Assembly: GCA_028554795.2 (NCBI GenBank) | Contig: CM068824.1 | Coordinates: 158,608,289 to 158,672,288, forward strand | Reading direction: 5' to 3' | Length of the DNA: 64,000 bases | Source: Sinohyriopsis cumingii | Lineage: Eukaryota > Mollusca > Bivalvia > Unionida > Unionidae | Shown here: in pieces, positions 34,459 through 50,317 of the stretch | How the letters are laid out: each line of letters starts with the position of its first letter | Numbering within the stretch: position 1 is the stretch's first letter | Notes under the pieces: model-generated | Told to the model about the DNA's origin: nothing | The model's input: only the letters and a program-made list of their open reading frames with translations | The model's database searches: none | Position numbers and translations under genes: made by a program

Positions 34459-34538
34459 TTTTTTTTTTTTTAATTTTTTTTTTTTTTAAAAAAAGGGGTA
34501 GGCAATGGAAAGGCTATCTCTTTTCGAGAAATATGGCT

Positions 34539-34554
34539 GGCCCTGAAAAGGGCC
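34539..34554 (-). terminator. Histone-type 3' stem-loop for the 34579-34812 gene
   Basis: On the minus strand: GGCCCT-TTTC-AGGGCC, a perfect 6-bp stem with a TTTC loop, 24 bases after the stop codon. It is followed by a purine-rich CTCGAAAAGAGA, comparable with a histone downstream element. Confidence 0.85.
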
Positions 34555-34578
34555 TTTGGGTTTATGTTAATGTATTCA

Positions 34579-34812
34579 TTAACATAAAGGGCACCGCATT
34601 GGTCTTCTTCTTGTCCTTAGACTACGTCTCACTGTTGGTCCGTAAATCAGCACTCTTTTCAGGCATCCTTGTCTTTCTACGTAGATCCTACGTATCCACA
34701 GACTGGTGTTTGTCCTGTGGACAACGGTCCACTTGGATCGGACATACATGGGTATGTCCGTCCGGAACATCATGGAAGACACAAGCGTAGAAGATTGCAT
34801 ATCGGTCCACAT
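34579..34812 (-). CDS. Small Arg-rich basic protein of element C
   Basis: 77 residues, 14 of them Arg, with Arg clusters in the C-terminal half (VRRSLRTRRR) and a final CPLC. I recognise no family; it could bind nucleic acid. The ATG at 34812 is preceded by a minus-strand TATA box (TATAAATA, 34857-34864), about 45 bases upstream. It is divergent from the 35032 gene, sharing a 220-base promoter region. The mRNA would end in a histone-type stem-loop. These promoter and terminator signals are the main reasons to call this short ORF real. Confidence 0.65.
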   Translation of the reverse strand: MWTDMQSSTLVSSMMFRTDIPMYVRSKWTVVHRTNTSLWIRRIYVERQGCLKRVLIYGPTVRRSLRTRRRPMRCPLC

Positions 34813-34856
34813 CTTGAAGCGACGAGAACAAGTGAATCAATGCACTGAACTGCGCT

Positions 34857-34984
34857 TATTTATAGGTAGAGGCAGGATTGAAACGGATTGAGTTCATTCA
34901 CCAATCCAAACACGCGTTACAAAATTCAGTCAGCCCGCATCCAATCCGAAGAGAGTAGTCTGTGACGTCAGTTGGTCTATATAG
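34857..34984. promoter_or_regulatory. Divergent promoter with two TATA boxes, CCAAT motifs and a CRE
   Basis: Minus-strand TATAAATA at 34857-34864 serves the 34812 gene. Plus-strand TATATAG at 34978-34984 serves the 35032 gene. Between them lie two CCAAT motifs (34901 and 34941) and a perfect palindromic CRE, TGACGTCA, at 34963-34970, eight bases upstream of the second TATA box. Such a set fits a strong early viral promoter using host factors. Confidence 0.75.
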
Positions 34985-35031
34985 ATTCGCTAGCGCTTGT
35001 GTGCAGTCAATCTATGCGACAGTGATTCAAC

Positions 35032-35592
35032 ATGACGGAAACTCAGAAAACGATCCATTGGGGTGCACCAGCAGGGGAGACCGCCCAAGGGAACCCGGAC
35101 TTACTTTCAGAAGAGGTACATTGGGATTTTGTGGATTTTCTTACCTCGCAAGAATTTGTTCCGGAACCTTCGTTACCTTCTTCATTACCGCAAGTGGAGA
35201 ATTTTAGACAGAGACAGAAAGAAGAATTGGAGAAATTTATGCAACGACAAAAGGAAGCGGAACAAGCTTTTCTCCTACAGCAACAGCAACAGCAACAAGA
35301 AGAGGTAAGAAAAAAACAACAGCAACAACAGCAAGAAGAAGTAGCAGCAAAGAAACAAGAGGGTGAAAATCAAACGGCTACGGTACTGTTGGACATTTTA
35401 GCGGAGTTAAGAAGTCTGAAACAAATGTATCAAACTTCTTTATCACGACCGAAGAGAATACGACCTTCCCGAGCTAAACACGCCAACCCTGTGACTAAGC
35501 CTGTCGTACCACCCTTAGTGATTTCAACCCAATCATCAGAAGTAGGCCTTGGCCGTGGCAAAGGCTTAAGGCAGTTAAAGTTGATTGGTTAA
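35032..35592 (+). CDS. Gln-rich coiled-coil accessory protein of element C
   Basis: 186 residues. An acidic N-terminal segment (residues about 20-50) is followed by a long Gln/Glu/Lys-rich coiled coil (about 55-110) with two polyglutamine runs. After a short helical stretch (LLDILAELRSLKQMY) comes a basic Pro/Ser-rich tail. I recognise no domain. The ATG lies about 48 bases after the TATA box at 34978-34984. A histone-type stem-loop follows the stop codon by 25 bases. The acidic-then-basic layout resembles transcription regulators, but that is a guess. Confidence 0.75.
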   Translation: MTETQKTIHWGAPAGETAQGNPDLLSEEVHWDFVDFLTSQEFVPEPSLPSSLPQVENFRQRQKEELEKFMQRQKEAEQAFLLQQQQQQQEEVRKKQQQQQQEEVAAKKQEGENQTATVLLDILAELRSLKQMYQTSLSRPKRIRPSRAKHANPVTKPVVPPLVISTQSSEVGLGRGKGLRQLKLIG

Positions 35593-35617
35593 ACTCACCC
35601 CTACACCAAAATAAAAA

Positions 35618-35633
35618 GGCCCTTTTCAGGGCC
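35618..35633 (+). terminator. Histone-type 3' stem-loop for the 35032 gene
   Basis: GGCCCT-TTTC-AGGGCC with A-rich 5' flank and ACCCA 3' flank, matching the metazoan histone mRNA 3' element at nearly every position. A purine-rich CTCGAAAAGAAAT follows 10-20 bases later. Confidence 0.9.
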
Positions 35634-36045
35634 ACCCACATTTCTCGAAAAGAAATACAATTTCAATTTGCCAATAACTCAAAAATAAACCCCACCCATT
35701 TTACCCTTATAGTACGTGTCTGTGTATGAGTGCTTGAGTTTAGCTTCTTATTTTAAAATCAAAACTCAAAGACACTTACCTTATATCATTCATGTATTCT
35801 TTTATCCATTTTTTACAATCCAATTCACAATTCACCACAGAACACTTTAATTAAAAGTTCATTGACTTCTTCTTTCTCCTTGTTTAGTCTCTCTGTTTTT
35901 TGAATTTCTTCACCGTTTTTTCCTCATTTTCTCCCCTTCTTCTTTTCTTCTCCTGTTTCTTTGCCTCTTTTAAATGGAATTGTCTTCTTTCTTCCTCTTC
36001 TTCCTCTGAAGAATCCCTCTCTTCTTCCGAAGAATCCCTCTCTTC
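35634..36045. other. Intergenic region of element C
   Basis: No separate gene. The block after the stem-loop (ATTTGCCAAT and ATAAAC) resembles those after the stem-loops at the right end of C. On the minus strand 35883-36045 is an open continuation of the zinc-knuckle frame beyond its stop, with Glu/Ser-rich repeats, so it may be a former C-terminal extension. Confidence 0.5.
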
Positions 36046-36354
36046 TTATGAAGAATCCTTCTTTTCTTCTGACTCCTCTTGTTTCTTTTTTGGGTAATCT
36101 GGAGACCAATGTCCTTTTTCTTTACAATAATAACAGGTATCTTGACTTTTGTCTTTTTTAGCCCCTGTTTTTTTTCTTTTTTGACGGTCTGGACACTCTG
36201 AAGACCAATGCCCTTTCTTCTGACAGATATAACAAGTATCTTGACTTTTATCTCGAAAGGAAGGAGAGTAGTCCGTCGGCTGGTCTGAAGAGAATTTTCT
36301 AATGACCCCTCGCAAAGCTCTGACGAAACGTTCCATCTGGGTAGTCTCTTCCAT
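36046..36354 (-). CDS. CCHC zinc-knuckle protein of element C
   Basis: 102 residues from the ATG at 36354. Two Cys-rich knuckles in direct repeat: CYICQKKGHWSSEC (C-x2-C-x4-H-x4-C, complete) and CYYCKEKGHWSPDY, where the last Cys is Tyr. A Lys/Glu/Ser-rich tail follows. CCHC knuckles bind single-stranded nucleic acid. A TATA box (TATAAAAA) lies at 36409-36416 on the minus strand, 55 bases upstream. The frame could continue past the TAA at 36046 for about 50 more codons, so the stop may be recent. The gene is divergent from the polymerase. Confidence 0.75.
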   Translation of the reverse strand: MEETTQMERFVRALRGVIRKFSSDQPTDYSPSFRDKSQDTCYICQKKGHWSSECPDRQKRKKTGAKKDKSQDTCYYCKEKGHWSPDYPKKKQEESEEKKDSS

Positions 36355-36408
36355 CGTTGTGCTCGGCTTGAGAGTGAAATGAATAGTGAAAGGACAAGAC
36401 ACACACCC

Positions 36409-36443
36409 TTTTTATACACGCTGGTTTGCCAAGACTATAAATT
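36409..36443. promoter_or_regulatory. Divergent TATA boxes for the zinc-knuckle and polymerase genes
   Basis: Minus-strand TATAAAAA at 36409-36416 and plus-strand TATAAATT at 36436-36443, each about 46-55 bases from the respective ATG. The two boxes are only 19 bases apart. Confidence 0.7.
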
Positions 36444-36489
36444 AGTCTATGGTGTTTAAACTTGAGTCATTTGACGTTTTGCACTCAAG

Positions 36490-39400
36490 ATGAAACGATC
36501 CCATTCATTCGAGAAGAAAGAAGAAGAAAGTAAGAGGCAGAAACGTGATCTATCGCCTCGTACCAGGGCTGAAATCTTGGCACAAATTCATGCCAGTGAT
36601 TTTGAAGAGGACATGAGTGAACCAGAATTTGAAACCTCTAAACCAAGTTCACCACCCTTAGTCAACCCTGAAAAATACTATTCCATTCGAGAGACGGAAA
36701 AGCGCTCCTCTAGAAAATTTAGAACCACGGCTTACACCTACACGGTGAAGTTTAAAGATTTCAAGGCCGACGTACCCTTGGAGAAAGCAGAAGGGTTTAT
36801 CACTGAGATGTGGGATTCTTTGCTCACCGCACTCAAGCGACAATGTCAACCCAAAGAAGACGATCGCTTGACACTATCCATAGATCACGACGGTTTGAAA
36901 TCCCCTGTTTGGATCGAGTTTAGCAGACCTGCAGAACTAACCCCTTCCAAAATCATGGACAAGATTCAACACGTACAACAATCTAATGACCAGTTTGACA
37001 TCACCGATGGTAAAGCCACACTGAAAATGGCCCACGTCTCTCTTCCTCAAGGGACAGGACGCAAAAAGATGTTATTGGTGGACGACCTTCGCAACACCAA
37101 AAAGAGTCTCGTCCGAATTAACAACCCTCAAGACCAAATGTGTTTAGCCCGTGCCATCGTGGTGGGACGAACCTATGCCGACAAGAACGACACGGTAGAA
37201 TGGAAAAGAACCTGGAAAACTATTCAACAATCCGACCGAGCCAAACAACGAAATGAAGCAGAACTCCTGTTGCAACAAGCCGGACTGTCCAAAGACACAC
37301 CCTGTGGCATTCCTGAGATGCAAAAATTGCAAGATGCCCTAGCTCCACGCTACACCTTGAAAGTGCACCCTCAAGAAATGCGTGGAACTCTGTTGTTTCG
37401 AGGCCAAGATTTTAAGGACGGAAAATACATTCATGTCTATCATCACGATGATCATTTCGATACCATTACCAGTATCACTGGATTCCTTGGATACGGTTAT
37501 TATTGTGAGAAATGTGACTATGGTTATAACAATCGAGAGCAACACAAGCATTGTGGAATGAAATGCCCAGGATGTTTGGCCTCTCCACCCTGTCTGAGCG
37601 AAGAACCAGTGCCTTGTTCGACTTGTTTGCGCACGTTTGTCAGTCCTACCTGTTACCAACAACATTTGAAAACACAAGGTTCACAGAAGAAATGTGCTTG
37701 TCAATTCCTGAGATTGTGCCCTACGTGTGGACAAGGCATACTTACCAACAATGCCAAGGCACACGTATGTCGAGGAAAGAAAAAATGTCACATTTGTCAC
37801 CACATCGTGGACTTGGAACACGAATGTTACGTGCAAAAATACCAACCCCCACCAGAGAAAGAGGACGGTCACAAGAAGAAAGGCAATTTCATCTTTTTCG
37901 ATTTCGAATGCATGCAAGAGACTGGCATTCACATCCCTAATTTCTGCGTGGCTCATCGAGCGTGCGAGAAGTGCATTCAAGAACCTATCTTCAGTCATTG
38001 CCCTCACTGCAGCAAGATTCCTGGAGGACGTGAAAAAATCTTTCGGGGACCAAACACGTTAGCCGATTTTGCCCAATGGGTCTTAGACCCCACCGACAAG
38101 ACGTGGAACCAAGAGGACATCGAACGTTACGGAGATTGTCATCGTCATGCCACGGTATTGGCTCACAATTTCTCCGGATACGATGGACAGTTTCTTCTCA
38201 GATACTATACGGAACAAGGCACCGAACGTCCTAAAGTGATTTTGAATGGAGCCAAAATCATTTTCATGCAAGTGGGACAAGTACAGTTTAAAGATTCGAT
38301 GAGCTATTTGGCCATGCCTTTGAGCCGAATGCCTAAAACGTTTGGAATGACAGAAATGGCTAAAGGGTACTTTCCACACTTTTTCAATACGGAAGCCAAT
38401 CAACACGCCGTTCTACCCCATTTGCCTGAGGCTCACTATTACGACCCCGACAACATGCGTACCGAACAACGAGAAGCTTTCTACGCTTGGTACCAGGCTC
38501 ACGCCTCTGACCCTTTCGACTTTCAGGAAGAAATGTTAAAGTATTGTCGTTCCGACGTGGACATTTTACGACGTTGCTGTGGAAAATTTCGAGAACTGTT
38601 CATGGAACACGGAGGGGTCGATCCTTTGAAAGAAGCTTGCACCATTGCCAAAGCGTGTTCCTTAGTGTACCGCCAACGATTCATGCCTGAAAACACCGTG
38701 GCTGTCATCAGTCCTCAAACAACCCACTATGTCAAACGTCAATACTCGGTCAAAGCCCTACGTTGGTTACATTACTTGTGCGACAAGGAAGACAAATGGA
38801 TTCAGCATGCCCGCAACGGAGGAGGCGAAAAGACCATCGGAACGTATTCGGTCGACGGCTGGGACTTAGAAAACCCCAAGATCGTGTACGAGTTTAACGG
38901 TTGCTTATTTCACGGATGTCCCGTCTGCTACACTGACCGTGACACTAAAAATCAGTTTTTACAACGGACCATGGAAGACCTGTACCAGGACACTTGTCAG
39001 CGACGCCTAAAGTTAGAACAGCAAGGATACCAAGTGGTGGAAATGTGGGAACACGAGTACGATCACCGTATGAAAACCGATCCCGAGTTTAAACGCCTCG
39101 TGGAAAGTTACCAGTTCATGGACCCGCTGAATCCGAGGGATAGTTTGTACGGAGGAAGGACCAATGCCACCTGTTTGCTGTACCAAGCCGACGAAGAGAA
39201 AGGAGAAGAAATCAAATACTTGGACGTGTGTTCGTTGTATCCCTACGTGTGCAAATATTGTCGCTTTCCTGTAGGGCACCCGCAATTGCTGACGGAACAC
39301 ATCGACCTGAAAAACATTCGACAATACGAAGACTTGATCAAGTGCAAAGTTTTGCCTCCCACGAACCTATACCATCCCGTCTTACCTCACCATTGTCAAG

Positions 39401-40551
39401 GCAAACTGATGTTTCCCTTGTGCCGTACTTGTGCCGAAACGTGCAACCAGGACCAACCTTGCCATCACAGCCAGGAAGAACGTGCCTTGACGGGAACCTG
39501 GGTCAGCGTAGAATTGTTCAAAGCTCTGGACATGGGATACCAACTGTTAGAAGTGTACGAAATTTGCTACTTTCCCAAGACACAACAGTACCACAAGGGT
39601 GACCCTACTCAGAAAGGCATTTTCGCCGACTACGTGGATGCCTTTTTGAAACTGAAACAAGAAGCCAGCGGCTATCCTTCCTGGTGTCACACTCACGAAG
39701 ACCAAATACAATTCAAAGAGAAATACTACGAACAAGAAGGCATCTCTTTAGACCACATCGAAAAAAACGAAGGCAGGCGATCGTTTGCCAAAGTGATGTT
39801 AAATTGCTTGTGGGGTAAAATGGCACAACGACCGTGTTTACCCAAGACGGAATATTTGACAGAACCTTCCCGCTACTTCCAGATGATTCACGACAAAACC
39901 AAATACATGAAACACGTGGACGTCGTTCGAGAGGATTTGATCTTGGTCAATTACGAAGAAGATCTGGACTTTGTACAAGACGACCCTTTTGGAAATGTCA
40001 TCATTGCGGCTTACGTGACAGCTCATGCTCGCTTAAAATTGTACGAAGCTTTAGAACTGTTAGAAGAACGCGTCCTGTAGTTTGACACGGACGGTTGCAT
40101 TTACATCCATCACCCGATTCAACAGCACCCTGACATCGAAGGAGACCGTTTAGGAGCCTGGACAGACGAGCATCCCGACGACAAGATTCTAAGTTTCGTC
40201 AGTGGTGGTCCCAAAAATTACGGCTACGAATACCGGGACAAACAAGGAGAAGTGCACACGACGTGCAAAGTGAAAGGACTGACTCTGAATCATCGTACCA
40301 GTCGAGTGGTCAACTTTGGGGTATTGAAAGAAGCCTTGCAATCGGGAGAGGATGGAAACTTTAAAGTGACCACTTATCAACCGAGCAAGATTGTACGTTT
40401 ACCCACTCACCACATCGTCAGTCGGCCCCTGGAAAAAATCTATCAAATCGTGTACCAGAAGCGAGTGAGACTTCCCAATCACTTTACGTTGCCGTACGGT
40501 CACATCGATATTGGTCAGCATATAAAAAGGGACAACGTCCAAGACCAATAG
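36490..40551 (+). pseudogene. Protein-primed family B DNA polymerase (pPolB), stop codon at the catalytic motif
   Basis: Presumed replicative polymerase of element C. In order: a disordered basic N-terminus; a Cys/His-rich zinc-finger region (about 340-450) typical of Polinton pPolB; 3'-5' exonuclease motifs FFDFEC (about 468), NFSGYDGQF (about 557) and YCRSDVDIL (about 682); motif A LDVCSLYP (about 911); and a motif B-like NCLWGK (about 1101). A TAG at 40078-40080 (codon 1197) lies directly before FDTDG, the metal-binding motif C. The frame then stays open for 156 more codons to 40551. As it stands the protein lacks motif C and the thumb. A TATA box lies at 36436-36443. Confidence 0.93.
40521..40528 (+). 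promoter_or_regulatory. TATA box upstream of the 40.6-kb small gene
   Basis: TATAAAAA embedded in the last codons of the polymerase frame, 57 bases before the ATG at 40578. Confidence 0.6.
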
Positions 40552-40577
40552 TTCATTGTTCATTGAAGTAACTTACC

Positions 40578-40825
40578 ATGTCGTTGACGAAGAAGAAACC
40601 AGATTGGTTAGGAGTCAAATGTTGGACATCACCGAGACCAGGGTTTTGAGGCTTGGACACAAGAGGTGGCCCAGTATCCACGAGAGTTATGCAAGGAAAA
40701 AAGTTACTTTTCAACCTGTGTTAGTGACGGTGCCAGAAGAACCCGTCACCCAGGACAGGACTGTCGTGGACAGGCCTGAAAGACCCTTTCGGGAGGACAC
40801 TTGTGTGACCTTACCCCTACTATAG
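40578..40825 (+). pseudogene. Small hypothetical gene of element C, probably frameshifted
   Basis: An ATG in good context (ACCATGT) follows a TATA box but its frame stops after 24 codons. An overlapping frame is open from about 40556 to 40825 and encodes a basic, Val/Pro/Arg-rich segment with no recognised domain. Its first ATG is at 40619. The two together look like one small gene with an indel. An AATAAA at about 40972 could serve as its poly(A) signal. Confidence 0.4.
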
Positions 40826-40992
40826 AACTGGTTAGAACTTTACCCAAAACATGTGGTTGTTGTACAGACACTTGTTTTTTATTCCACGTTCATGTGCCTT
40901 TTATTCTTGTACTTAAGCCTTTGGCTTTTATGTATTTTTGTCTTTCGTATTCATGTTTGAAAAAAATATTCAATAAACGTGTTCTGAAAAAG

Positions 40993-41000
40993 TATATAAA
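40993..41000 (+). promoter_or_regulatory. TATA box of the packaging ATPase gene
   Basis: TATATAAA, 49 bases upstream of the ATG at 41049. Confidence 0.65.
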
Positions 41001-41048
41001 CTCTTGTCTTGTTTGTTTTTTCGTGTCACAAGTGACATTCCTCACACC

Positions 41049-41792
41049 ATGGCTACCTCTACTGTCTCTGCTCCCTCTTCCTCTACTGTCAAAGTCATCG
41101 ACGAACACTTAGATCGTGCCAGTTGGGAGGCTTTGTATCTTCGCCATCCCTTTAACATGCTCATTGCTGGACCTAGCGGTTCTGGCAAAACCGAATTCGT
41201 CAAACGTTTGATCGAACATAAACATCATTTGATCGATCGGCCCCCTCAACGGATCGTGTGGTGTTACAAAGAGTGGCAATCGGCGTACAGCCTCTTGCGA
41301 GAAAGTCAAGGCGATTCCATCGTGTTTGTGGAAGGCATTCCTAAAGAAGACGACGGTATCGTCTCTGACTCCCGTCAAACCCATTTGGTCATTTTCGACG
41401 ACATGTTAGGAGAAGACGAAGAAGAAATTAAACTGTGGTTCACGCGCAAAGGGCATCACCGTAATGCCAGTGTCGTTTACATCACCCAAAATTTGTTTCA
41501 ACAAAGTAAAGCCCATCGCACCATCAGTCTCAATGCGCATTACGTGGTCTTGTTTAAAAGCCCTCGAGATAAATCACAAGTGCAAGTCTTAGCCAAACAG
41601 TTAGGAACGCCTTGGCTGACTCAGGCGTACGACGATGCCACTCAAACGCCACACGCCTATTTACTCGTCGATTTGAAACCTACGACTCCCGAGGATTTGC
41701 GATTTCGTACCCACTTGTTTCACCACTGGTGCCAAGACGGAGGGCCTGTCCTGTACACGTCTCCGTCCTCGACTTCATTTCACTCCCCATAA
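41049..41792 (+). CDS. A32-like genome-packaging ATPase of element C
   Basis: 247 residues from an ATG in good context (CCATGG). Walker A GPSGSGKT is at about residues 41-48 and Walker B LVIFDDML at about 113-120. The sensor region FTRKGHHRNASVVYITQNLF is characteristic of the FtsK/HerA packaging ATPases of Polintons, virophages and large DNA viruses. It would drive the linear genome into the capsid. The frame is intact, unlike the equivalent gene in element A. Confidence 0.92.
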   Translation: MATSTVSAPSSSTVKVIDEHLDRASWEALYLRHPFNMLIAGPSGSGKTEFVKRLIEHKHHLIDRPPQRIVWCYKEWQSAYSLLRESQGDSIVFVEGIPKEDDGIVSDSRQTHLVIFDDMLGEDEEEIKLWFTRKGHHRNASVVYITQNLFQQSKAHRTISLNAHYVVLFKSPRDKSQVQVLAKQLGTPWLTQAYDDATQTPHAYLLVDLKPTTPEDLRFRTHLFHHWCQDGGPVLYTSPSSTSFHSP

Positions 41793-41799
41793 AAAAATC

Positions 41800-41807
41800 T
41801 ATAAAAA
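41800..41807 (+). promoter_or_regulatory. TATA box of the 41846 gene
   Basis: TATAAAAA, 38 bases upstream of the ATG at 41846. Confidence 0.65.
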
Positions 41808-41845
41808 CCTCAGACCCTTTTTCGTCTGTCTCACACAGTGTGAAC

Positions 41846-42766
41846 ATGACGTCCCTTCAGTCGCATCTTCCCGTCAAATTGATTCGTGCCTTGTATGGCA
41901 TCAGTCGAGAAAAAAATCCACAAACACGAGCTCGTGTCTTAGAAGCTAGTCTCAAAGAAATCTTACGATGGTTCACGGTGACGGCACGTCAATTACTCCA
42001 AGGAATCATTCAGATTCCTCATCAAACCAAACGCTTTTTCGATCGAAACAAAGTCGCTTTGGTCCAACTGGCCGATCCCCGCATCGACACTCAAACCAAA
42101 AAACAAATCATTTTGAAACCTGGAGGGAGCGGTACTCTAGGAGGGGTCATCATTCGCTCACTCTTAAGATGGGATCCTAATGCCCCCAAAGTTATACCCA
42201 AGACAAAAGTCCAACGAAGCCCCAAGAAGAAAAAGACCAGGTCCCCAAGGAGAACTTCTCCAGTGGCAGGACCCTCCTCTGACCAGACACCACCACCACC
42301 CCGGAAAAAGAAAAGAAGCCCCCAGGAAAAGAAAAGTCCACAGAAAACTAGTCGCAAGAGAGGCACTTCGGCCAGGACGCAACCTTACACTCGCAAACCA
42401 CGACCTGCCACGGCGGTGACTGCGTCTCCGGCAGCTTCACGTTTGTCCACTTCTCCGTTAATGACACCCAGAACTGAAGAGTACTTGGAGACGTTGATCA
42501 CACCAAGAACTTCTCCGTTGATGACCCCCAAAAGAACTTCCCCAGTGGCAGGACCTTCCAATTTAGTGGCAGTGGCTGCTGCTCACAAAGTACCTTCTCC
42601 CAAAATCAAAGTTCAAGAAAGATCGGGCATGTTACAAAGTTTACTGGATTTGTCCAAGCAAGAACTGGCTCGATTTAGTCCGTTACGTACCCCTGCACGA
42701 CGTGTCATGCCTGTCCTCAAACTAATACGACGTAAAGACAATCAGTGGCGACGCGTTCCAGTATAA
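41846..42766 (+). CDS. Basic core or minor virion protein with Pro/Ser/Lys-rich repeats
   Basis: 306 residues from the ATG at 41846, just after a TATA box. The helical N-terminal part (1-100) ends in a KQIILKPGGSGTLGGVI segment resembling the RGG-hydrophobic endings of Polinton pX-like peptides. The rest (about 110-290) is a low-complexity basic tail with repeated RTSPVAGPS and TSPLMTPRT blocks, phosphorylation-prone and suited to DNA binding. No enzyme motif is present. I infer a chromatin-like or core role. Confidence 0.65.
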   Translation: MTSLQSHLPVKLIRALYGISREKNPQTRARVLEASLKEILRWFTVTARQLLQGIIQIPHQTKRFFDRNKVALVQLADPRIDTQTKKQIILKPGGSGTLGGVIIRSLLRWDPNAPKVIPKTKVQRSPKKKKTRSPRRTSPVAGPSSDQTPPPPRKKKRSPQEKKSPQKTSRKRGTSARTQPYTRKPRPATAVTASPAASRLSTSPLMTPRTEEYLETLITPRTSPLMTPKRTSPVAGPSNLVAVAAAHKVPSPKIKVQERSGMLQSLLDLSKQELARFSPLRTPARRVMPVLKLIRRKDNQWRRVPV

Positions 42767-42769
42767 AAA
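42762..42769 (+). promoter_or_regulatory. TATA box of the 42825 gene
   Basis: TATAAAAA overlapping the stop codon of the preceding gene, 55 bases upstream of the ATG at 42825. Confidence 0.65.
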
Positions 42770-42824
42770 AGGCCTGTGACCAAGTCGGGTATCAGTGTTT
42801 TTTGGTGCTCCTGAAGACTCAAAG

Positions 42825-43211
42825 ATGTCACCCTCCAGAAAACCCCAAGGAAAGAAAAGGAAAGGACTGCCACCACGTTTAGCCAAAAATGGGGACATGT
42901 TATCTGTTCTGTCCAAAGCTTCTCCACCCCTACGAAAAAAACTCATTCAAACGGCCTCCAAAGAGGTCATCGATACCGTGTGCGAATGTTGTTTGAACGT
43001 TTTGAAAGGCACGATCCCTTTGTCCAAACACCAGAAACAATGCTTAAGCAAACATCGTCACGTTCTTCGCCAAATGGTTCAAAAGAAAATTCCCATTCGT
43101 CAAAAAAAGAAGATGTTAGTGCAACGTGGAGGTATTTTACCTCTCTTGTTAGGCCCCATACTGAAAGGAGTCTTGGGAACCATGTTGGGAGGACTGGTGG
43201 GAGCAAGATAA
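42825..43211 (+). CDS. pX-like small basic protein of element C
   Basis: 128 residues. A basic N-terminus is followed by the block VIDTVCECCLNVLKGTIPLSKHQKQCL, a HRHVLRQMVQKKI helix and LVQRGGILPLLLGPIL, then a Gly-rich hydrophobic end. This is a familiar conserved small protein of animal Polintons, often compared with the adenovirus pX/mu precursor. It probably binds DNA or perturbs membranes in the virion. The ATG follows the TATA box at 42762-42769. Confidence 0.78.
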   Translation: MSPSRKPQGKKRKGLPPRLAKNGDMLSVLSKASPPLRKKLIQTASKEVIDTVCECCLNVLKGTIPLSKHQKQCLSKHRHVLRQMVQKKIPIRQKKKMLVQRGGILPLLLGPILKGVLGTMLGGLVGAR

Positions 43212-43215
43212 AAAG
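43207..43215 (+). promoter_or_regulatory. TATA-like box of the 43260 gene
   Basis: GATAAAAAG, 44 bases upstream of the ATG at 43260 and overlapping the end of the pX-like gene. Confidence 0.5.
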
Positions 43216-43259
43216 GCCTCGGAAGTTCCAAGATCTCAGAATCGACCCCTGACAACCCC

Positions 43260-43904
43260 ATGGAAGGACGAAAACTAGCTTTAGTGCCTTACAAACGATG
43301 GATGGAATACCATCGGTGGCAAGAACAACACACCCCGCATTTACCTCCCAATCCCCATTTGAGCGAGATGTCCCAGTTACAACACGAATTGCAGTCCTTG
43401 ATGGATCGCCAAGATTTGTCCGAAACAGAAAAATCGCAAAAGTACGGTCAACTCTTGCAACGACTGCAACTATTTCACCAGAAAGCTTTAGACGAAACAG
43501 CTCTACCCACTCTGAAAGATTTTAAGACCTTGATGAAAAGTCCAGCACCATCTCCAGTACCAGTACCAGTACCAGTACCACCAGTACCCGTGACCAAGAC
43601 AGAAAAAGGAGAAGAAGAGGAAGGGTTTCAAACTCCACCAGAAAAAGTACGCAAGTTAACAACACCACCTACCTCCAGAATTGGATGGATTAAAAAGATG
43701 ATGGCCACCCCTTCTTCCTCACAAGAGAAAAAGAAAGTAAAGACAGAAGTGAAGACAGAAGTGAAACAAGAACCGATATCCCCCGCTCAGACATCCTTCT
43801 CCTCTTCGACACCTATTGCTGGCCGCACACGCAAAGCATTGCAATCCAAGAAAATACCCCAAGAGAAAAAGAGTAGCATCCTCCAAGAGTGGGTGTCTTA
43901 TTAA
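43260..43904 (+). CDS. Conserved Polinton protein of unknown function (PY-like position)
   Basis: 214 residues. The N-terminal third (MEGRKLALVPYKRW...LQHELQSLMDRQDLSETEKSQKY in outline) is a helical block that I associate with a recurrent but uncharacterised animal Polinton protein. The rest is low complexity: a run of Pro-Val repeats near 98-111, acidic and basic patches and several SP/TP sites. It ends at 43904, 14 bases before the integrase ATG. It could be a regulatory or packaging adaptor; there is no direct evidence. Confidence 0.65.
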   Translation: MEGRKLALVPYKRWMEYHRWQEQHTPHLPPNPHLSEMSQLQHELQSLMDRQDLSETEKSQKYGQLLQRLQLFHQKALDETALPTLKDFKTLMKSPAPSPVPVPVPVPPVPVTKTEKGEEEEGFQTPPEKVRKLTTPPTSRIGWIKKMMATPSSSQEKKKVKTEVKTEVKQEPISPAQTSFSSSTPIAGRTRKALQSKKIPQEKKSSILQEWVSY

Positions 43905-43918
43905 CACAAAAAATAAAA

Positions 43919-45028
43919 ATGGAAAAAGTCTTAGCCAGCATTTACTACGATCCGTTCCATTTTGCAGGTTACGCAGGAGTTCAAAAATTGTATCGTGCTG
44001 CCAAAACGCGACTGAAAAGTCTCCGTTTACCTCAAGTGCAACGATGGTTACAAGAACAAGCTACCTACACTTTACACAAACCCATTCGACGCAAGTTTGC
44101 CAGAAGTCGCACCCGAGTGGAAGGCATCGATCATCAATGGCAAGCCGATTTAGCCGATGTCTCTCATTTAGCCAGCTACAATCGTGGCTACAAATATTTG
44201 TTTTGTGTCATCGATGTCTTTTCCAAATTTGCTTGGGTCGTACCCTTGACTTCCAAATCGAGCAGCGAGTTAGTGCGAGCCCTGCAACGGGTGTTGAAAC
44301 AAAGCGGTCGTCACCCTCTTCGATGGCAAACGGACAAAGGCACCGAATTTCTGAACCAAGCTTTCCAAAAAGAATTAAAGAAACGTGACATTCATTTTTT
44401 TACCACCGAGAATCCCAAAACCAAAGCCAGCATCGTGGAACGTTTTCAACGCACTTTGAAAGAACGCATGTGGAAATATTTTACGCATCACCACACTCTG
44501 AAGTACATCGACATCTTACCGCACCTGGTGCAAGCGTACAACCAATCTTACCATCGAAGCATTGGACGTGCCCCGCAAGACGTGACACCCGACAACGAAG
44601 TGCTGGTGTTTGAGCGTCTGTTTGGTCCGTCCCCGACGAGGGCTGTCCCCAAGAAAAGTGGAGAGTTGGCCGTAGGAGATTGGGTGCGCATTGGCAAAAC
44701 CAAACGCACTTTCGACAAAGGTTACTTACCTAACTGGACGACCGAATTATTTCGCGTCACTGGACGAGTGCATGGTCGTCATCCTGCCGTCTATAAATTG
44801 GAAGACATGAACGGAGAAGTGCTCAAAGGAACGTTTTATTTGCCCGAGTTACAACGTGTCACCAAAAAAGAAGACGACGTGTACGACATCGAAAGCATTC
44901 TCGAACGCAGAACCCGTAAAGTGGGCAAACGACGTGTCAAAGAAGTCAAAGTACGTTGGAAAGGATATCCGCCCAGTTTTGATTCTTGGATCGACGCTTC
45001 GCAAGTCATCGACTATAAAAAGAAGTGA
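43919..45028 (+). CDS. DDE integrase with C-terminal chromodomain (element C)
   Basis: 369 residues from the ATG at 43919. Catalytic residues are D77 (WQADLADV), D139 (WQTDKGTEF) and E174 (SIVERFQRTL), spaced D-x61-D-x34-E. A C-terminal chromodomain (about 322-367: YDIESILERR...VRWKGYPPSFDSWI) is visible, including the aromatic positions used to bind methylated histone tails. Such chromodomains can target integration to chromatin. Elements A and B lack one. The frame is intact. Confidence 0.94.
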   Translation: MEKVLASIYYDPFHFAGYAGVQKLYRAAKTRLKSLRLPQVQRWLQEQATYTLHKPIRRKFARSRTRVEGIDHQWQADLADVSHLASYNRGYKYLFCVIDVFSKFAWVVPLTSKSSSELVRALQRVLKQSGRHPLRWQTDKGTEFLNQAFQKELKKRDIHFFTTENPKTKASIVERFQRTLKERMWKYFTHHHTLKYIDILPHLVQAYNQSYHRSIGRAPQDVTPDNEVLVFERLFGPSPTRAVPKKSGELAVGDWVRIGKTKRTFDKGYLPNWTTELFRVTGRVHGRHPAVYKLEDMNGEVLKGTFYLPELQRVTKKEDDVYDIESILERRTRKVGKRRVKEVKVRWKGYPPSFDSWIDASQVIDYKKK

Positions 45029-45033
45029 CCATC

Positions 45034-45450
45034 ATGCCCTTTCACACAGCAGACGCAGCTACGTCGACCACTCCTCCTTCACCTAGTTCTTCTGTGCAAG
45101 ATTTACAAAAACAACCCTTGTGGGTGTGGTGTGGAGAACGTGTGCCTAAAACGCAAATCGTCTTTTTCTGCCAAATCTTCGTGGTGTATTGTGTCATCGG
45201 GGCAGCCATCGCCAATTTGAGTTTGCAACAAGGAGACAAACAATTGTGGACCATTTTATTGAGCAGTTGCATCGGTTACCTGCTTCCTAATCCCTCCCTG
45301 AAATTCACCTCGAACGGGAACCCCGGGAACCTTGTGTCCAGTGCCAGTGCCAGTTACCACTTCAATCACAACCAGAACCCCATTTTGGGCGGAGACACGC
45401 CTCTGACGTCCACTAACCCCTCGGACAGCCACAGAACTCTGGAATTATGA
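45034..45450 (+). CDS. Two-helix membrane protein conserved in Polintons
   Basis: 138 residues. A Ser/Thr/Pro-rich N-terminus is followed by a hydrophobic helix (QIVFFCQIFVVYCVIGAAIA, about 49-68) and a second, shorter one ending in GYLLPNPSL (about 80-95), then a polar Asn/Ser-rich tail. This pattern recurs in animal Polintons next to the minor capsid gene. Its stop codon overlaps the penton start as ATGA (45447-45450), which suggests coupled translation. Its function is unknown; it may sit in the virion inner membrane or at exit sites. Confidence 0.75.
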   Translation: MPFHTADAATSTTPPSPSSSVQDLQKQPLWVWCGERVPKTQIVFFCQIFVVYCVIGAAIANLSLQQGDKQLWTILLSSCIGYLLPNPSLKFTSNGNPGNLVSSASASYHFNHNQNPILGGDTPLTSTNPSDSHRTLEL

Positions 45451-46371
45451 GTCACCAAAACCAATTTTACTTAACTTTACCCAGTGACAGTTCCATGGAG
45501 GTGTTTCCCAAGAACACGTTGTGCTGTTACACGGCCAAATTACCTCAAGCCATCCCCTTAGATCACGAAGCCCATTGGGAAGTGGCTTTAGTAGAAATGA
45601 TTCACGCGACCCAAGTCCTCAAAGTCCTTCCCAATCAAAATTTTTTGGATGTGGAAGTTCATGACGAACAATTGCAACAGTGGATGGATAGCAATGTCAA
45701 ATTTGACAAGAAAACCCGTACACAAAAGTACACCACCTATCACTTGTTCATTCCCCCAGGCTATTATTTTAGTGGTCAACATTTGGTCAGCACCATAACC
45801 TCCAGGTTTAATGTCGTGTTTCTGAAAGCTTTGGAGCATGTCAACAAAAGTGTCACCCTGGAGTACCAAAAAAGCAGCTCGTCGCTTCTTGATGAAATTT
45901 GAACGAAGTAAAATCCTGTCCATTTTATTTTGTCCTGAATTGTTTGACATGTTGGGCGGAGACATGGACATGAGAAAGACCATGCTCAAGAAAAATGAAT
46001 TACCCATCGTTTACGACAACGAGTCTTTTAGCAAGTTATTTCGTGCCCCGGTAGAACTGAACCAAGGACTGAATTTGATGTTTGTGTATTCCGATGTGGT
46101 GGAGTACAACGTGGTGGGACACACCTCCGTACCGTTACTGCGTGTCATTCCTTTCAAAGTGGATTCTGCCACGGACGCTGACGAGGAAGGTGGAAACACT
46201 TACCACGTCCACCGCGAATTTGTACATCCTCACTATTTGCCTGTCAGTAAGTCGTATTTGGACACGGTCAACATTGCTATAAAATGAGATCTGGGACAAA
46301 ATATTCCATTCACCAAAGGAAAAGTCACGGTGAAACTCCATTTTCGAAAACGGTTCTCTCACGACTCGTAA
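45447..46371 (+). pseudogene. Penton-like minor capsid protein of element C, frameshift plus stop
   Basis: The N-terminal frame starts FYLTLPSDSSMEVFPKNT and contains WEVALVEM, the usual opening of Polinton minor capsid proteins. It shifts frame near 45885-45900. The second frame carries on with FRAPVELNQGLNLMFVYSDVVE and LLRVIPF and is interrupted by a TGA at 46285-46287. Conserved end sequence (GKVTVKLHFRKR) continues to the TAA at 46369-46371. It would form the capsid vertices if intact. It has none of the long central insertion seen in copies A and B. Confidence 0.85.
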
Positions 46372-46378
46372 GTAAGTC

Positions 46379-46796
46379 ATGTATCCAGTGTACCGAGGGG
46401 TTGCTCGACAGCGAGGACACGGTTTAGGAGACATGTTAAAATCGGTCTTTCGTTCGGTGGCCCCGGTGTTGAAACCGATGGTGACACGCGGATTGCACGC
46501 CTTGAAAGATGCGGCACTGACGCAAGGCAAAGAATTTCTCCAAAATGTCATCATCGACAAACAAAACCCTAAAGAAGCCTTCATGAGGGCAGGCAAAAAA
46601 TGTCTTGCTGCAAACGGGCAAAGACATTTTAGGCCAACGAGAAACACCTATAAATGCCCTGCACGCTACCGAGTCAGGCATTCAGCAAGGACAAGGCAGA
46701 AAGAGACGACGAAGAAAACACCCTTTCACCAGACTTCAAGCGAGAAAGGCCAAGAAAAGAAGAACCGTTCGAGACTTAGACGTTTTCGATTATTGA
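46379..46796 (+). pseudogene. pVI-like minor capsid protein of element C, frameshifted
   Basis: The start MYPVYRGVARQRGHGLGDMLKSVFRSVAPVLKP has the basic head and the Gly-Leu-Gly-Asp amphipathic segment of pVI-like proteins, also seen in A and B. The frame shifts near 46600 in an A-run. The other frame supplies the basic tail with RKRRRRK and ends DLDVFDY at 46796, nineteen bases before the capsid gene. The membrane-disrupting role is known for adenovirus VI and inferred here. Confidence 0.78.
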
Positions 46797-46814
46797 GAAA
46801 AAAGAGACAAAAAA

Positions 46815-48128
46815 ATGATGCACCGAGAATCTTGCGCTTGTTCCAAGACGGAACTGGATCTGTTTGCCATGCCCCCCACGATGATGACGATGCAAGAATC
46901 CCAGTGGGTGGAATTTCACCCCGTCTCCTCACTGACCGATTCCGCTCCCATCGAGTTTGAAATCAAAGGACAGCCCGAAGATTACATCGATCTGAATAGC
47001 AGTTACTTGTACCTGAAAGTCAAAATTCTAGATAAGACTGGAGGTGCTATAGACGATGAAGCAGTAGCTCCCGTCAACAATTTCATGCATTCCTTGTTCA
47101 GTGGAGTGGACTTGTACTTGAATAACAAACTGGTCAGTAGCAGCATGGATACTTACCCTTATCGTGCCTACCTGGAAAATCTCTTGACGTACGGAATAGA
47201 TGCCAAGAACACTCATCTCAATGCCTGTGTGGTATGGGAAGCTGACGAACCTACCAAGTTTGAAATATTGGAAACTGATGAAAAGAAAGACAACAATGAT
47301 GGATTTGTAGAACGAAGAAAGAGAATCACGGGAGCCGACACAAGTTTAGAACTGATGGATCGTTTGCATTTGGACATGTGGTTGCAAGAAAAGTATTTGC
47401 TGAACGGGGTGGATGTCCGCCTGAGACTGAATCGTAGCAGTGCCGCTTTCCATTTGATGGCTGATAGTGACGGTTACAAAACCAAAATCCTAGAAGCCAG
47501 ACTCTACGTACGCCGTGTGGAAGTGTTACCTAAAGTGGGAAACGACATCAGTCAGACGTTGAGTAGAACGACCGCCAAGTATCCCATACGACGCGTGGAA
47601 GTGAAAACCTTCACCATTCCCAAGGGACAGCGATCCATGATCGAAGATCATCTGTTCCAAGGACAGTTACCCAAACGTTTGATCGTTGGTATCGTCGAGA
47701 ATACAGCCTTCAACGGAGCTGCCGAAAAAAATCCTTTCTACTTTCAACACTTTGGCGTGTCCAAAATCGAAGTCAGTCGCGATGGCAAGACCTTGTGTAC
47801 CCGACCTTTCGAACCTGACTTTACCAAGAAGAATTACTTGAGATCGTACTTGTCCCTGTACGAAGCCACCGGACAGTTAGGAACCAATACCAGTCACGGT
47901 ATTACGTACGAGGATTATGCAGGAGGCTACGCTTTGTGGGCTTTCGATATCACTCCAGACCAAGGCAGCGACGAGGGACATTTCCACCCTATAAAATCTG
48001 GCCAGATTCGTGTGGAAATTCAGTTTAAAGACCGAGACCCTGATGAAACGGTGAACGTCATCCTGTATGCAGAATTCGATAATACCATAGAAATCAACAG
48101 TTTGAGAGAAGTCATCCTAGATTACTAG
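46815..48128 (+). CDS. Double-jelly-roll major capsid protein of element C
   Basis: 437 residues, intact. The N-terminus (ESCACSKTELDLF), QWVEFHPVSSLTD, DYIDLNSSYLYLKVKI, NFMHSLFSGVDLYLNNKLV and YPYRAYLENLLTYG are signature blocks of the classical animal Polinton capsid protein. Very little of this is shared with the capsid proteins of A and B, so C belongs to a distinct lineage. The 3' region carries two AATAAA signals inside a duplicated block. Confidence 0.92.
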   Translation: MMHRESCACSKTELDLFAMPPTMMTMQESQWVEFHPVSSLTDSAPIEFEIKGQPEDYIDLNSSYLYLKVKILDKTGGAIDDEAVAPVNNFMHSLFSGVDLYLNNKLVSSSMDTYPYRAYLENLLTYGIDAKNTHLNACVVWEADEPTKFEILETDEKKDNNDGFVERRKRITGADTSLELMDRLHLDMWLQEKYLLNGVDVRLRLNRSSAAFHLMADSDGYKTKILEARLYVRRVEVLPKVGNDISQTLSRTTAKYPIRRVEVKTFTIPKGQRSMIEDHLFQGQLPKRLIVGIVENTAFNGAAEKNPFYFQHFGVSKIEVSRDGKTLCTRPFEPDFTKKNYLRSYLSLYEATGQLGTNTSHGITYEDYAGGYALWAFDITPDQGSDEGHFHPIKSGQIRVEIQFKDRDPDETVNVILYAEFDNTIEINSLREVILDY

Positions 48129-48187
48129 AAACCATGGAAGACTGTTATCCCTCTTTACCTAGTGGAGAAACTTTTAGTGTTGCATTG

Positions 48188-48359
48188 TTGTTAAAAAATG
48201 TTAGAGTTGTTGTTTAGTGTTAAGTGATTTTTGAATAAAAAATGTTGTGTTTTGAAAAAATTGTTTGATGTTATATTGTTGGATTATTGTTAAAAATGTT
48301 AGAGTTGTTGTTTAGTGTTAAATGATTTTTGAATAAAAATTGTTGTGTTTTGAAAAAAA
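48188..48359 (+). repeat. Tandem duplication (about 73 bp, spaced) with two poly(A) signals
   Basis: The blocks 48188-48260 and 48287-48359 are nearly identical and each contains AATAAA (48234-48239 and 48332-48337). They lie downstream of the major capsid gene and probably supply its polyadenylation site. Confidence 0.8.
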
Positions 48360-48464
48360 TGCCTTTGTCTTTTGTTTAGCTATAAGAATGTTGGATTGAT
48401 GCTCTTTCATTTCTTACTATCCCTCTCATGACACTCACTAAACGTTGCGACTCAAAAACCGTGT

Positions 48465-48494
48465 GGGGGATGTTTTCCTTCACGTCCGCGCTTT
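48465..48494 (+). promoter_or_regulatory. Conserved 30-bp upstream element, copy 1
   Basis: Identical over 30 bases to 49321-49350. It starts GGGGGATG, contains TTCCTTCACGTCCGCGC and lies about 62 bases before the ATG of the 48557 gene. No clear TATA box follows in this copy. Confidence 0.8.
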
Positions 48495-48556
48495 AACTTT
48501 AAGAACCGGGTTGTTTCCAGTCTAACCATCCATTGTCGACTCATCCTCCTAAGAAG

Positions 48557-48916
48557 ATGTGCTCCAAACTAGCTAAACTCAACGAAGCCTACGTGAATTT
48601 GCATAGGGTCAGACACAGTCTGATACCGAAGCCAGAAGAAATTGAGAATGTGAGAATGTTAAAAATCACTGAAGACCTGATAGAAGAGCTCTTCAGAGAA
48701 GAAATGAACAGGGAAAAAGAAGAATGGACAGAGAAGTACAGACTACAGAGACAGCAGCAACAACAACAACAAGAGCAGCAGCAGCAGCAACCTGAACCTG
48801 ACAGAGGCTTTGTCGATTGCCGTATCGACACCAAAGAGTTCTTCTTTTCTTTCCGAAGAAGCAGACCTATCGCCAGAAAGTCAATCCTCAGAGGACATCG
48901 CATTCTTAGAAACTAA
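48557..48916 (+). CDS. Gln-rich accessory protein of element C, paralogue 1
   Basis: 119 residues from the ATG at 48557. The helical N-terminus (KLAKLNEAYVNLHRVRHSL) resembles that of the 49412 protein (RLSKLLELHVHLEYARRLL), so the two genes look like tandem duplicates. A Glu/Lys-rich helix and a polyglutamine run (about residues 70-84) follow, then a short Arg-rich tail. I recognise no domain. A histone-type stem-loop lies 29 bases after the stop, and the upstream 30-bp element is shared with its paralogue. Confidence 0.7.
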   Translation: MCSKLAKLNEAYVNLHRVRHSLIPKPEEIENVRMLKITEDLIEELFREEMNREKEEWTEKYRLQRQQQQQQQEQQQQQPEPDRGFVDCRIDTKEFFFSFRRSRPIARKSILRGHRILRN

Positions 48917-48945
48917 AAAAAGAATGCCATAGCAAACAAAAAAAC

Positions 48946-48961
48946 AGCCCTTTTCAGGGCT
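48946..48961 (+). terminator. Histone-type 3' stem-loop for the 48557 gene
   Basis: AGCCCT-TTTC-AGGGCT, a perfect 6-bp stem and TTTC loop with A-rich 5' flank and ACCCC 3' flank. A purine-rich CAAAAGAAATAAC follows. The first base pair is A-T where the histone consensus has G-C. Confidence 0.85.
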
Positions 48962-49411
48962 ACCCCAATACTCTACAAAAGAAATAACGATCGATTTGCC
49001 AATGTGTGTAGGTAGAGTAGTGTGAAAATAAACACTAACTCTTTTTTAAAAAATGTGAGCGTATGTGTTTGTGTGTTAGTAAGTGCTTAAGTAAGTTGGT
49101 ATGAATAGTAGATTAAAATCATGTTTTTTTGGTGTTTGAGGTGTATATTTGGAGTTAGATTGGATTGCTTTGCGTATGTGGATAGTCTAATGAAGTGATT
49201 TATAAAAAATTTTAATATAGTGATGGGTAGCATAAAAAAAGTGAATGAGTGTTTCTTTTAGGTCCGCGCGTTGTTGTTTTTGGTCATGATGTAGGTAACA
49301 TTAATTTTATGTTTTTTTTAGGGGGATGTTTTCCTTCACGTCCGCGCTTTCACTATAAATTGAAACTCGCTGGGCAGTCTAGCTACCCTTGTTGATTGAT
49401 CAACACCAAAA
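48962..49411. other. Intergenic region between the two duplicated accessory genes
   Basis: No gene. The block after the stem-loop (ATTTGCCAATGTG and GTAGAGTAGTGTGAA, about 49000-49030) recurs after the next stem-loop at about 49870-49900. The 3' end carries the second 30-bp upstream element and a TATA box. Confidence 0.65.
49321..49360 (+). promoter_or_regulatory. Conserved 30-bp upstream element, copy 2, with TATA box
   Basis: Bases 49321-49350 repeat 48465-48494 exactly. TATAAAT at 49354-49360 lies 52 bases before the ATG at 49412. A partial third copy of the core (TCCGCGCGTTG) lies near 49262. Confidence 0.8.
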
Positions 49412-49792
49412 ATGAACACGAGACTGTCTAAACTGTTGGAACTTCATGTGCATCTGGAATATGCCAGGCGCCTGTTGAATGAACTGGCCGCGGAAGCCAT
49501 TGTGGAGGAGGGAAGGATAAGAGAGGAGGAGGAAAGAAGAAAAAAAGAAGAGGAGGAGAGAAGATATAAAGAAGAAGAGGAAAGAAGATACAAAGAGGAG
49601 GAGAGAAGAAACAAAGAAGAGGAGGAGGAGAAGGAAAAGAAGAGAAGAAGAATAAATTTCAGAATCCCAGAGAGCGAAAATTGGGATTCTGAAGCGACAT
49701 ATCCTGCCTCTGCTCTCTCCCCCAAAAAAGTAAAAAGTAACTGGGGGATAAGATGTGTATGTGGCGCCAGGCCTGGAAGGTGCCACCATTAA
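49412..49792 (+). CDS. Glu/Arg/Lys-rich coiled-coil accessory protein of element C, paralogue 2
   Basis: 126 residues. A helical N-terminus like that of the 48557 protein is followed by a long charged helix with repeats of EEEERRYK (about 35-80) and a C-terminal segment with an SP site and a small Cys/His cluster (CVCGARPGRCHH). I recognise no domain. It has a TATA box, the shared 30-bp upstream element, and a histone-type stem-loop 29 bases after the stop, which together support a real gene despite low complexity. Confidence 0.7.
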   Translation: MNTRLSKLLELHVHLEYARRLLNELAAEAIVEEGRIREEEERRKKEEEERRYKEEEERRYKEEERRNKEEEEEKEKKRRRINFRIPESENWDSEATYPASALSPKKVKSNWGIRCVCGARPGRCHH

Positions 49793-49820
49793 CCAGGTGT
49801 CCATGAAGTTCCAAAAAAAC

Positions 49821-49836
49821 AGCCCTTTTCAGGGCT
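49821..49836 (+). terminator. Histone-type 3' stem-loop for the 49412 gene
   Basis: AGCCCT-TTTC-AGGGCT with ACCCA downstream, an A-run upstream and a purine-rich AGAAAAGAAATAACC after it. Almost identical to the stem-loop at 48946-48961. Confidence 0.88.
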
Positions 49837-50033
49837 ACCCAATACTCTAGAAAAGAAATAACCATCAATTTGCCAATGTGTAGGTAGAGTAGTGTGAATA
49901 TAAACACTAACTCTTTTTTAAGATAGTGTGAGGGTATGTGTTTGTGTGTTTGTGTTTGTGTGTTTGTGTTTGTACCCGCTCACGTACGATTGTGTGGATA
50001 GTAGATTATGGATTTGTTTATTGTTTCTTAGCG

Positions 50034-50150: not shown

Positions 50151-50317
50151 GTAAATTCGTCACCGATTGCAATTTTTGTATGCAAAAATCATTGATTTTG
50201 GACAGCAATTTTAGGGGGGGGGGGGTAGGAGAAATTTATTCCATCGATGAAGTTTGCGAAGATTTGGCTGCCGATCCTAATTTTACCTCGCATTAAAACA
50301 ATATAGTTGAAAATAAT

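Follow-up and report, generated by a model that had tools for sequence, protein, structure and literature searches.

The stretch analysed comprises 64,000 nucleotides (nt) of contig CM068824.1 of the bivalve Sinohyriopsis cumingii (positions 158,608,289 to 158,672,288, forward strand) and is hereafter called the window. It holds three virus-like elements, and the middle one is a Polinton, as the preliminary description had it, given the Polinton/Maverick hallmarks that it shows: a family B DNA polymerase, a retroviral-type integrase with a chromodomain, an A32/FtsK-type ATPase, a capsid of double jelly-roll fold and a terminal inverted repeat (TIR). Four small genes near the ends of this central element, named SLg1 to SLg4, are each followed by a histone-type stem-loop. 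SLg1 (77 amino acids (aa), 34579-34812, minus strand) and SLg2 (186 aa, 35032-35592, plus strand) lie at the left end, and SLg3 (119 aa, 48557-48916, plus strand) and SLg4 (126 aa, 49412-49792, plus strand) at the right.

A histone 3' stem-loop is defined by a 6-bp stem with G-C outer pairs and a UUUC-type loop. Direct inspection confirmed the four loops, with perfect 6-bp stems and a TTTC loop in each, at the places and on the strands first reported: 34539-34554 (minus strand) for SLg1, and 35618-35633, 48946-48961 and 49821-49836 (all plus strand) for SLg2, SLg3 and SLg4. The outermost stem pair is G-C in SLg1 and SLg2 and A-U in SLg3 and SLg4. The distance from stop codon to loop, claimed as 24-29 nt, was measured as 24, 25, 29 and 28 intervening nt for SLg1 to SLg4, and in every window case the loop follows the orientation of its gene. 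When the Rfam Histone3 model (RF00032, gathering score 34) was searched over the 33-52 kb stretch of the window, all four loops were detected, with 35.6 bits (E 3.5e-7, over 34514-34559) for SLg1, 41.2 bits (E 2.9e-9, over 35613-35657) for SLg2, 29.0 bits (E 1.1e-4, over 48941-48985) for SLg3 and 31.0 bits (E 1.9e-5, over 49816-49861) for SLg4. The outcome of this check, which the preliminary description had proposed, is thus divided: the gathering score is passed by SLg1 and SLg2 and missed by the other two. Aligning the four 3' regions shows the loop core and AAAAGA to be invariant, with a further TTGCC block in common. No fifth match to the 16-nt loop exists in the 64 kb at up to three mismatches (100 shuffles gave a mean of 0.16 and at most 2), and no loop was found within 300 nt past the stop in the other 12 open reading frames (ORFs) of the element examined.

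The purine-rich element claimed 3' of the loops is present after all four, in the form (G/C)AAAAGARAU: GAAAAGAGAT at 34516-34525 (minus strand) for SLg1, GAAAAGAAAT at 35647-35656 (plus strand) for SLg2, CAAAAGAAAT at 48976-48985 (plus strand) for SLg3, and again GAAAAGAAAT, within CTAGAAAAGA, at 49850-49859 (plus strand) for SLg4. Downstream of both SLg1 and SLg2 stands CTCGAAAAGA. These elements resemble those of the histone genes of the same genome. A histone family search of the host genome scored 150 matches among 662 candidates, and one 8.3-kb host repeat holds H3, H4, H2B, H2A and H1, recognised by sequence, each with a loop (GGYCCTTTTNAGGRCC) 27-38 nt past the stop. The host H2B loop, GGCCCTTTTCAGGGCC, is the identical 16-mer; those of H3, H4 and H2A are one loop base off, and that of H1 is one stem pair off. 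Downstream of the host loops, CTAGAAAAGA occurs in H3, H4, H2B and H1, and CCCGAAAAGG in H2A, where CATCAATTTTGCCA takes the place of the CATCAATTTGCCA of SLg4. When the 8.3-kb repeat was compared by blastn with the whole window, without regard to position, the 13 best rows all fell at the four loops (E 3e-8 to 0.004), and rows 14-25 (E 0.012-0.23) comprised loop rows, promoter elements and three presumed chance matches elsewhere. The view that the element has captured the histone 3'-end pathway therefore gains support from host histone genes with the same kind of loop and downstream element.

The likeness extends to the promoters of two of the genes. The 22-nt sequence ATGTTTTCCTTCACGTCCGCGC occurs exactly at 48470-48491 (plus strand), beginning 87 nt before the SLg3 ATG, and at 49326-49347 (plus strand), beginning 86 nt before the SLg4 ATG; it occurs nowhere else in the window at up to three mismatches, and in none of 100 shuffles. 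For the remaining 13 of the 15 element genes, a search of 300 nt of upstream sequence did not find it, even with eight mismatches. The host H2B gene has the same element at -106 with one difference, and H1 at -104 with two; H2A has an imperfect inverted copy with four differences, and in the host histone repeat it was not seen before H3 and H4. Blastn of a host H2B unit against the window gave matches upstream of SLg3 (33 columns, E 0.003) and SLg4 (32 columns, E 0.007), and with the host H2B array the six best rows were loops and the seventh was the SLg3 promoter. A further stretch upstream of SLg4, 49252-49279 (plus strand), is common with the host H4 promoter (TTTCTTTTAGGTCCGCGCGTT; 28 columns, 92.9%, E 0.031). 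SLg3 and SLg4 thus carry histone signals at both gene ends, and SLg1 and SLg2 the 3' signal only. The promoter element presumably resembles Site II of vertebrate H4 genes, which is bound by HiNF-P. According to the available portion of PMC5706932, HiNF-P connects H4 genes to NPAT and the G1/S transition.

The exact 16-nt loop motif occurs 35,021 times in the 2.9-Gb host genome (17,286 and 17,735 by strand), histone genes included, and the reversed pattern never; by arithmetic, about five would be expected in random sequence of that size. Among 100 motif places listed, 54 form 27 divergent pairs, 1,066-1,104 bp apart, like those of SLg1 and SLg2, often with a further loop about 15-20 kb off. 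Given 35,021 motifs at about three per element, we infer on the order of ten thousand element copies in the genome. When 12 motif places were searched with Rfam, 23 Histone3 matches exceeded the gathering score, and six of these lay within an H2B array. That array, which accounts for seven of the 100 places listed, consists of 1,851-bp tandem units; it was considered as a set of odd element copies and rejected as such, since one translated unit encodes host histone H2B. It has seven loops (G000:C1:5072800-5086000) and lies apart from the 8.3-kb five-gene repeat.

These numbers bear on the simplest alternatives, namely that the loops arose by chance or that host histone genes happen to lie in the element. 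Chance was rejected given the shuffles, the genome-wide count of 35,021 against 0 and the recurrence of loops at the same places in the sampled copies. A Pfam search matched none of the four loop-gene proteins to a histone family, so that degenerate histone genes were likewise rejected. This pair of explanations is accordingly given practically no credence.

Other copies of the element show how regularly the arrangement recurs. Twenty right ends were selected solely by the loop of their outermost gene; four places (L106, L110, L111 and L112) are the same as L145, L144, L146 and L147 and were counted once. SLg3 is present in 16 of the 20, with the promoter element (up to two mismatches) in all 16 and the loop exact in 13 and with one mismatch in three. 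SLg4 is present in 18, with the loop exact in 15, with one mismatch in two and damaged in one; its promoter element is found in 17 of the 18 copies, the eighteenth piece starting inside the gene. Two right ends have neither gene. At the other end, all 16 sampled left ends match SLg1 (by tblastn) and SLg2.

Mean pairwise identity was calculated for copies with a match reaching the C-terminus (17 of 21 for SLg3 and 19 of 21 for SLg4, window included). For SLg3 and SLg4 respectively it is.978 and.967 in the loop and.965 and.970 in the downstream element. By comparison, the final 60 coding nt give.940 and.851, the interval from stop to loop gives.887 and.788, and the sequence past the downstream element gives.81-.92. 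The loop and the downstream element are therefore the best conserved parts of these 3' regions, in copies that were not chosen by the loops concerned. The left-end copies and the SLg5 loops described below were picked by an exact loop and hence provide no measure of loop conservation. The proteins of SLg1 to SLg3 are under purifying selection: the median ratio of nonsynonymous to synonymous substitution rates (dN/dS) is 0.14 for SLg1 (114 pairs), 0.39 for SLg2 (31) and 0.11 for SLg3 (90), and below 1 in every counted pair, values which are lowered by the restriction to intact frames of at least 85% length (16 for SLg1, 9 for SLg2 and 14 for SLg3, of 17 each, window included; pairs with dS above 0.03). 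About half of the SLg2 frames are not intact and were excluded.

In 18 of the 20 right ends the promoter element occurs once more, before the last loop, and in 16 an open frame, named SLg5, ends 16-34 nt before that loop. SLg5 is of two kinds, nine copies being like MASNQMDK...DKIRTWWRKRRN and seven like ...GMMDKIRGWWKKLRS, with only the C-terminus in common by eye. Both kinds have a similar basic, tryptophan-containing C-terminus (DKIRTWWRKRRN and DKIRGWWKKLRS), the same promoter element and the same loop. SLg5 is absent from the window because a neighbouring element begins at 50033; in other copies SLg5 and the right TIR lie beyond the position matching this junction (50032-50033, to a base or two, with the second neighbouring element, B2).

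One could suppose from these data that a histone 3' end and promoter were captured once, were multiplied by duplication inside the element and no longer have a use. The promoter and 3' blocks common to SLg3 and SLg4 are indeed spaced about 856-874 nt, as after tandem duplication, and SLg4 is probably a paralogue of SLg3, to judge from 29% identity in sequence; loops are also damaged in 3 of 16 SLg3 and 3 of 18 SLg4 copies. Yet within the 3' region conservation is highest at the loop and downstream element, the outer stem pair differs on both sides between the paralogues, two different-looking SLg5 proteins share promoter element and loop, and the proteins of SLg1 to SLg3 are under purifying selection. 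A disused relic is thus very unlikely.

The TIR, about 320 bp long, was seen by comparing the window's left end with the right ends of other copies, the window itself holding the left one only. All 20 distinct right ends match the left end in part, 18 of them from the same inner base and 12 along nearly the full 320 bp unbroken, which places the left TIR at about 34241-34563 (no strand assigned), its outer end being approximate. Since its inner edge lies 9 nt before the SLg1 stem-loop, the outermost genes have their loop and downstream element inside the TIR, facing outward, and the left outermost loop lies within it. The outermost gene at each element end would, judging from sequence, be terminated by a loop borne by the TIR. 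Also inside the TIR, at 34254-34456, are five copies of a repeat of about 35-44 nt with (T)TAGCGTCAA. The location of one loop inside the TIR could favour a hairpin acting at the DNA level, in replication or packaging of the element ends. Still, the SLg2, SLg3 and SLg4 loops lie outside the TIR, loop orientation follows the gene in the window, and histone genes share the downstream element and the stop-to-loop distance, which makes a DNA-level role highly improbable.

The preliminary description had further contrasted the loop genes with the capsid and polymerase genes. This contrast holds in that both of the latter are without a loop and AATAAA follows the capsid ORF (at +106 and +204), and it fails in that three of the four loop genes have AATAAA or ATTAAA as well; for the polymerase ORF, the 300 nt past the stop contain no loop and no AATAAA/ATTAAA. 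Beyond the loop, SLg1 has ATTAAA at +105, SLg2 AATAAA at +92 and SLg3 AATAAA at +111, and SLg2 also has AATAAA just before its loop. Given these signals, polyadenylated forms of SLg1, SLg2 and SLg3 are possible, and the ends may be dual or conditional, the loops working in cycling cells only and the same genes being polyadenylated at the downstream AATAAA elsewhere. There is a precedent in human H2AC18, which is processed either way, by stem-loop or poly(A), according to the available portion of PMC9756948. On the other side, SLg4 has no AATAAA/ATTAAA within 300 nt of its stop, and dual ends would limit only the exclusiveness of processing at the loop. We regard conditional ends as rather unlikely.

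The poly(A) signals just described count against an exclusively histone-like reading of these genes, as do the restriction of dN/dS to intact frames and the choice of left ends and SLg5 loops by the loop itself, and several further observations point the same way. AATAAA or ATTAAA occurs within 300 nt past the stop in just 3 of 12 non-loop ORFs. The SLg3 and SLg4 loops, with their A-U outermost pair, score under the Rfam gathering score. SLg1 and SLg2 are without the promoter element; TATA boxes stand before loop and non-loop genes alike and were hence rejected as a mark of the loop genes. In the histone-repeat blastn, the promoter rows (E 0.012-0.031) are no better than the three presumed chance matches, and what lends them weight is the motif search together with their location, not the blastn E value. 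Finally, four relatives from GTDB records (L102-L105, capsid 27-45% identical), some on short contigs, have no Histone3 match at E 0.5.

With these points weighed, we consider it likely, with good confidence, that the small end genes of the central Polinton have control regions organised like those of histone genes, with SLBP/U7 processing and replication-coupled expression. The mRNAs of SLg1 and SLg2 at the left, and of SLg3 and SLg4 (plus SLg5 in other copies) at the right, would end at the histone stem-loop. Host SLBP would bind the loop, the U7 small nuclear ribonucleoprotein would pair with the GAAAAGARAU element, and the histone cleavage complex would cut between the two, leaving no poly(A) tail. 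SLg3 to SLg5 would additionally be driven by the host H2B/H1 promoter element and so be coupled to histone transcription. Given the histone-type loop, downstream element and promoter, expression of the loop genes should peak with histone expression, in S phase, or in the oocyte or early embryo, where histone mRNA is stored. The benefit would probably be timing to the replication of host DNA and of the element's own copies, or expression in oocyte and embryo. Processing by SLBP and U7, absence of poly(A), S-phase timing and its benefit are here inferred from sequence signals. The host's histone genes, present in the same genome, serve as a built-in control and make the reading directly testable.

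If so, these genes would probably, if less assuredly, yield the first class of animal mRNAs known to pass through the histone pathway without encoding histones, with promoter element and tail-less 3' end rebuilt around Polinton cargo and the 3' signal placed in the TIRs; the terminal genes would be switched on at each round of host replication, and the element, at the copy number given above, could compete heavily for SLBP, U7 and the histone locus body. The system would then show, by natural experiment, which signals are enough for replication-coupled expression, and how a Polinton times genes to DNA replication. It would also raise the question of how a host deals with this surplus of SLBP/U7 sites (the genome has 35,021 exact loops, histone genes included). 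Were the mechanism true, RNA sequencing of poly(A)-selected material would miss the loop-gene transcripts and the element would look silent.

The loop-gene proteins themselves give few hints of function. The SLg2 model has a long helix at residues 53-137 followed by the basic stretch RPKRIRPSRAK, and the fold prediction is a single long helix with a predicted template modelling score (pTM) of 0.27; the basic stretch looks like a nuclear signal, and a nuclear helper role might be guessed at. SLg4 is E-, K- and R-rich and varies between copies. The retinoblastoma motif LxCxE is absent from the four loop genes, and one LFCPE occurs elsewhere among the 16 ORFs. Database relatives number 20 for SLg2 (56-91%) and nine for SLg3 (74-83% over residues 1-66). 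One of the SLg2 relatives continues beyond its stop, and its tail matches a loop and downstream element, with the best window place at 35617 (38 of 42 nt); reading its letters places the loop 28 nt past the lost stop. This relative may come from the same or a close species, given that copies within this genome differ as much. In another database protein, P0140, an SLg2-like start is followed by an apparent stretch of the polymerase N-terminus, possibly from an internally deleted element copy.

The remaining genes of the central element are without stem-loops. A zinc-knuckle gene (36046-36354, minus strand; Pfam) has ATTAAA at +195. The family B DNA polymerase ORF (36490-40080, plus strand; Pfam DNA_pol_B_2, 147.2 bits) ends at 40080, and a long gap follows until the next gene at 41049, which is the A32-type packaging ATPase (41049-41792, plus strand; Pox_A32, 32.7 bits, cut-off 22.8). 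The integrase with chromodomain (43919-45028, plus strand) matches rve with 54.1 bits and Chromo with 31.9 bits. The major capsid protein (46815-48128, plus strand) matched no Pfam family at E 0.1, and its double jelly-roll fold was recognised from an AlphaFold model (mean predicted local distance difference test score, pLDDT, 82.8), for which Foldseek gave Sputnik as best match (E 5.4e-17, TM 0.62), with mavirus (E 1.2e-15), iridovirus and PBCV-1 capsids matching as well. No cysteine protease was recognised among the ten proteins scanned with Pfam, a scan that was not a search aimed at it. The organisms named among the best 120 of 1013 capsid relatives are bivalves (Mercenaria, Crassostrea, Ostrea and Saccostrea) and one bacterial-symbiont bin.

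The central Polinton is flanked by two copies of another element family, in opposite orientation, at 17781-32950 and 50033-64000. This family encodes a capsid of double jelly-roll type, an integrase, a protein resembling phospholipase A2 (Pfam Phospholip_A2_4) and a protein of about 990 aa whose C-terminal third carries a helicase-type AAA domain (Pfam on the second copy). The first copy has TIRs of about 250 bp, with CACATCG on both sides. The second begins inside the histone-signal Polinton, between SLg4 and the expected SLg5, and is thus a nested insertion. Near the left end of the window, whose contig is 193 Mb long, there is a TMEM18 ORF, which points to an animal.

Outside the host genome, the IMG/VR viral contigs have 101 loci with the exact loop, none with both the AAA flank and the downstream purine element, and none with the longer loop pattern; no relative turned up there when the integrase or the alignments of capsid and SLg2 served as queries. 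Since the four distant GTDB relatives show no Histone3 match, the trait may be confined to a lineage, though part of their end regions is missing. One of these, L103, has a weak twister-P1 ribozyme match at its positions 11734-11798 (28.9 bits, gathering score 67.2), which is probably due to chance.

In the open-access literature, to which the search was mostly confined, none of the titles and abstracts among the matches listed links Polintons, or mobile elements of any other kind, to histone 3' ends, and neither "histone" nor "stem-loop" occurs in PMC11071308. The available portion of PMC6210712 describes bivalve histone mRNAs whose loop lies close to the stop; some of the genes have purine-rich elements and others do not. 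Dual-signal genes of the human H2AC18 type, as far as the portion of PMC9756948 cited above describes them, likewise have a loop and a poly(A) signal in one 3' region, whereas the genes here are non-histone genes of a mobile element.

In comparison with metazoan replication-dependent histone genes, the loop genes have the same kind of loop, the same stop-to-loop distance and the same downstream element, and their promoter element is as in host H2B and H1. Unlike histone genes, they encode non-histones, two of their four loops have an A-U outer pair, and they lie in a mobile element. In mimivirus, viral transcript ends are marked by hairpins of varied sequence, and poly(A) is added there; the loops of this element, in contrast, have the sequence and flanks of histone genes. 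Finally, unlike the Polinton/Maverick elements (adintovirus-like) in the papers listed, this element has histone-type 3' ends at the genes of its two ends, together with histone-type promoters on three of them.

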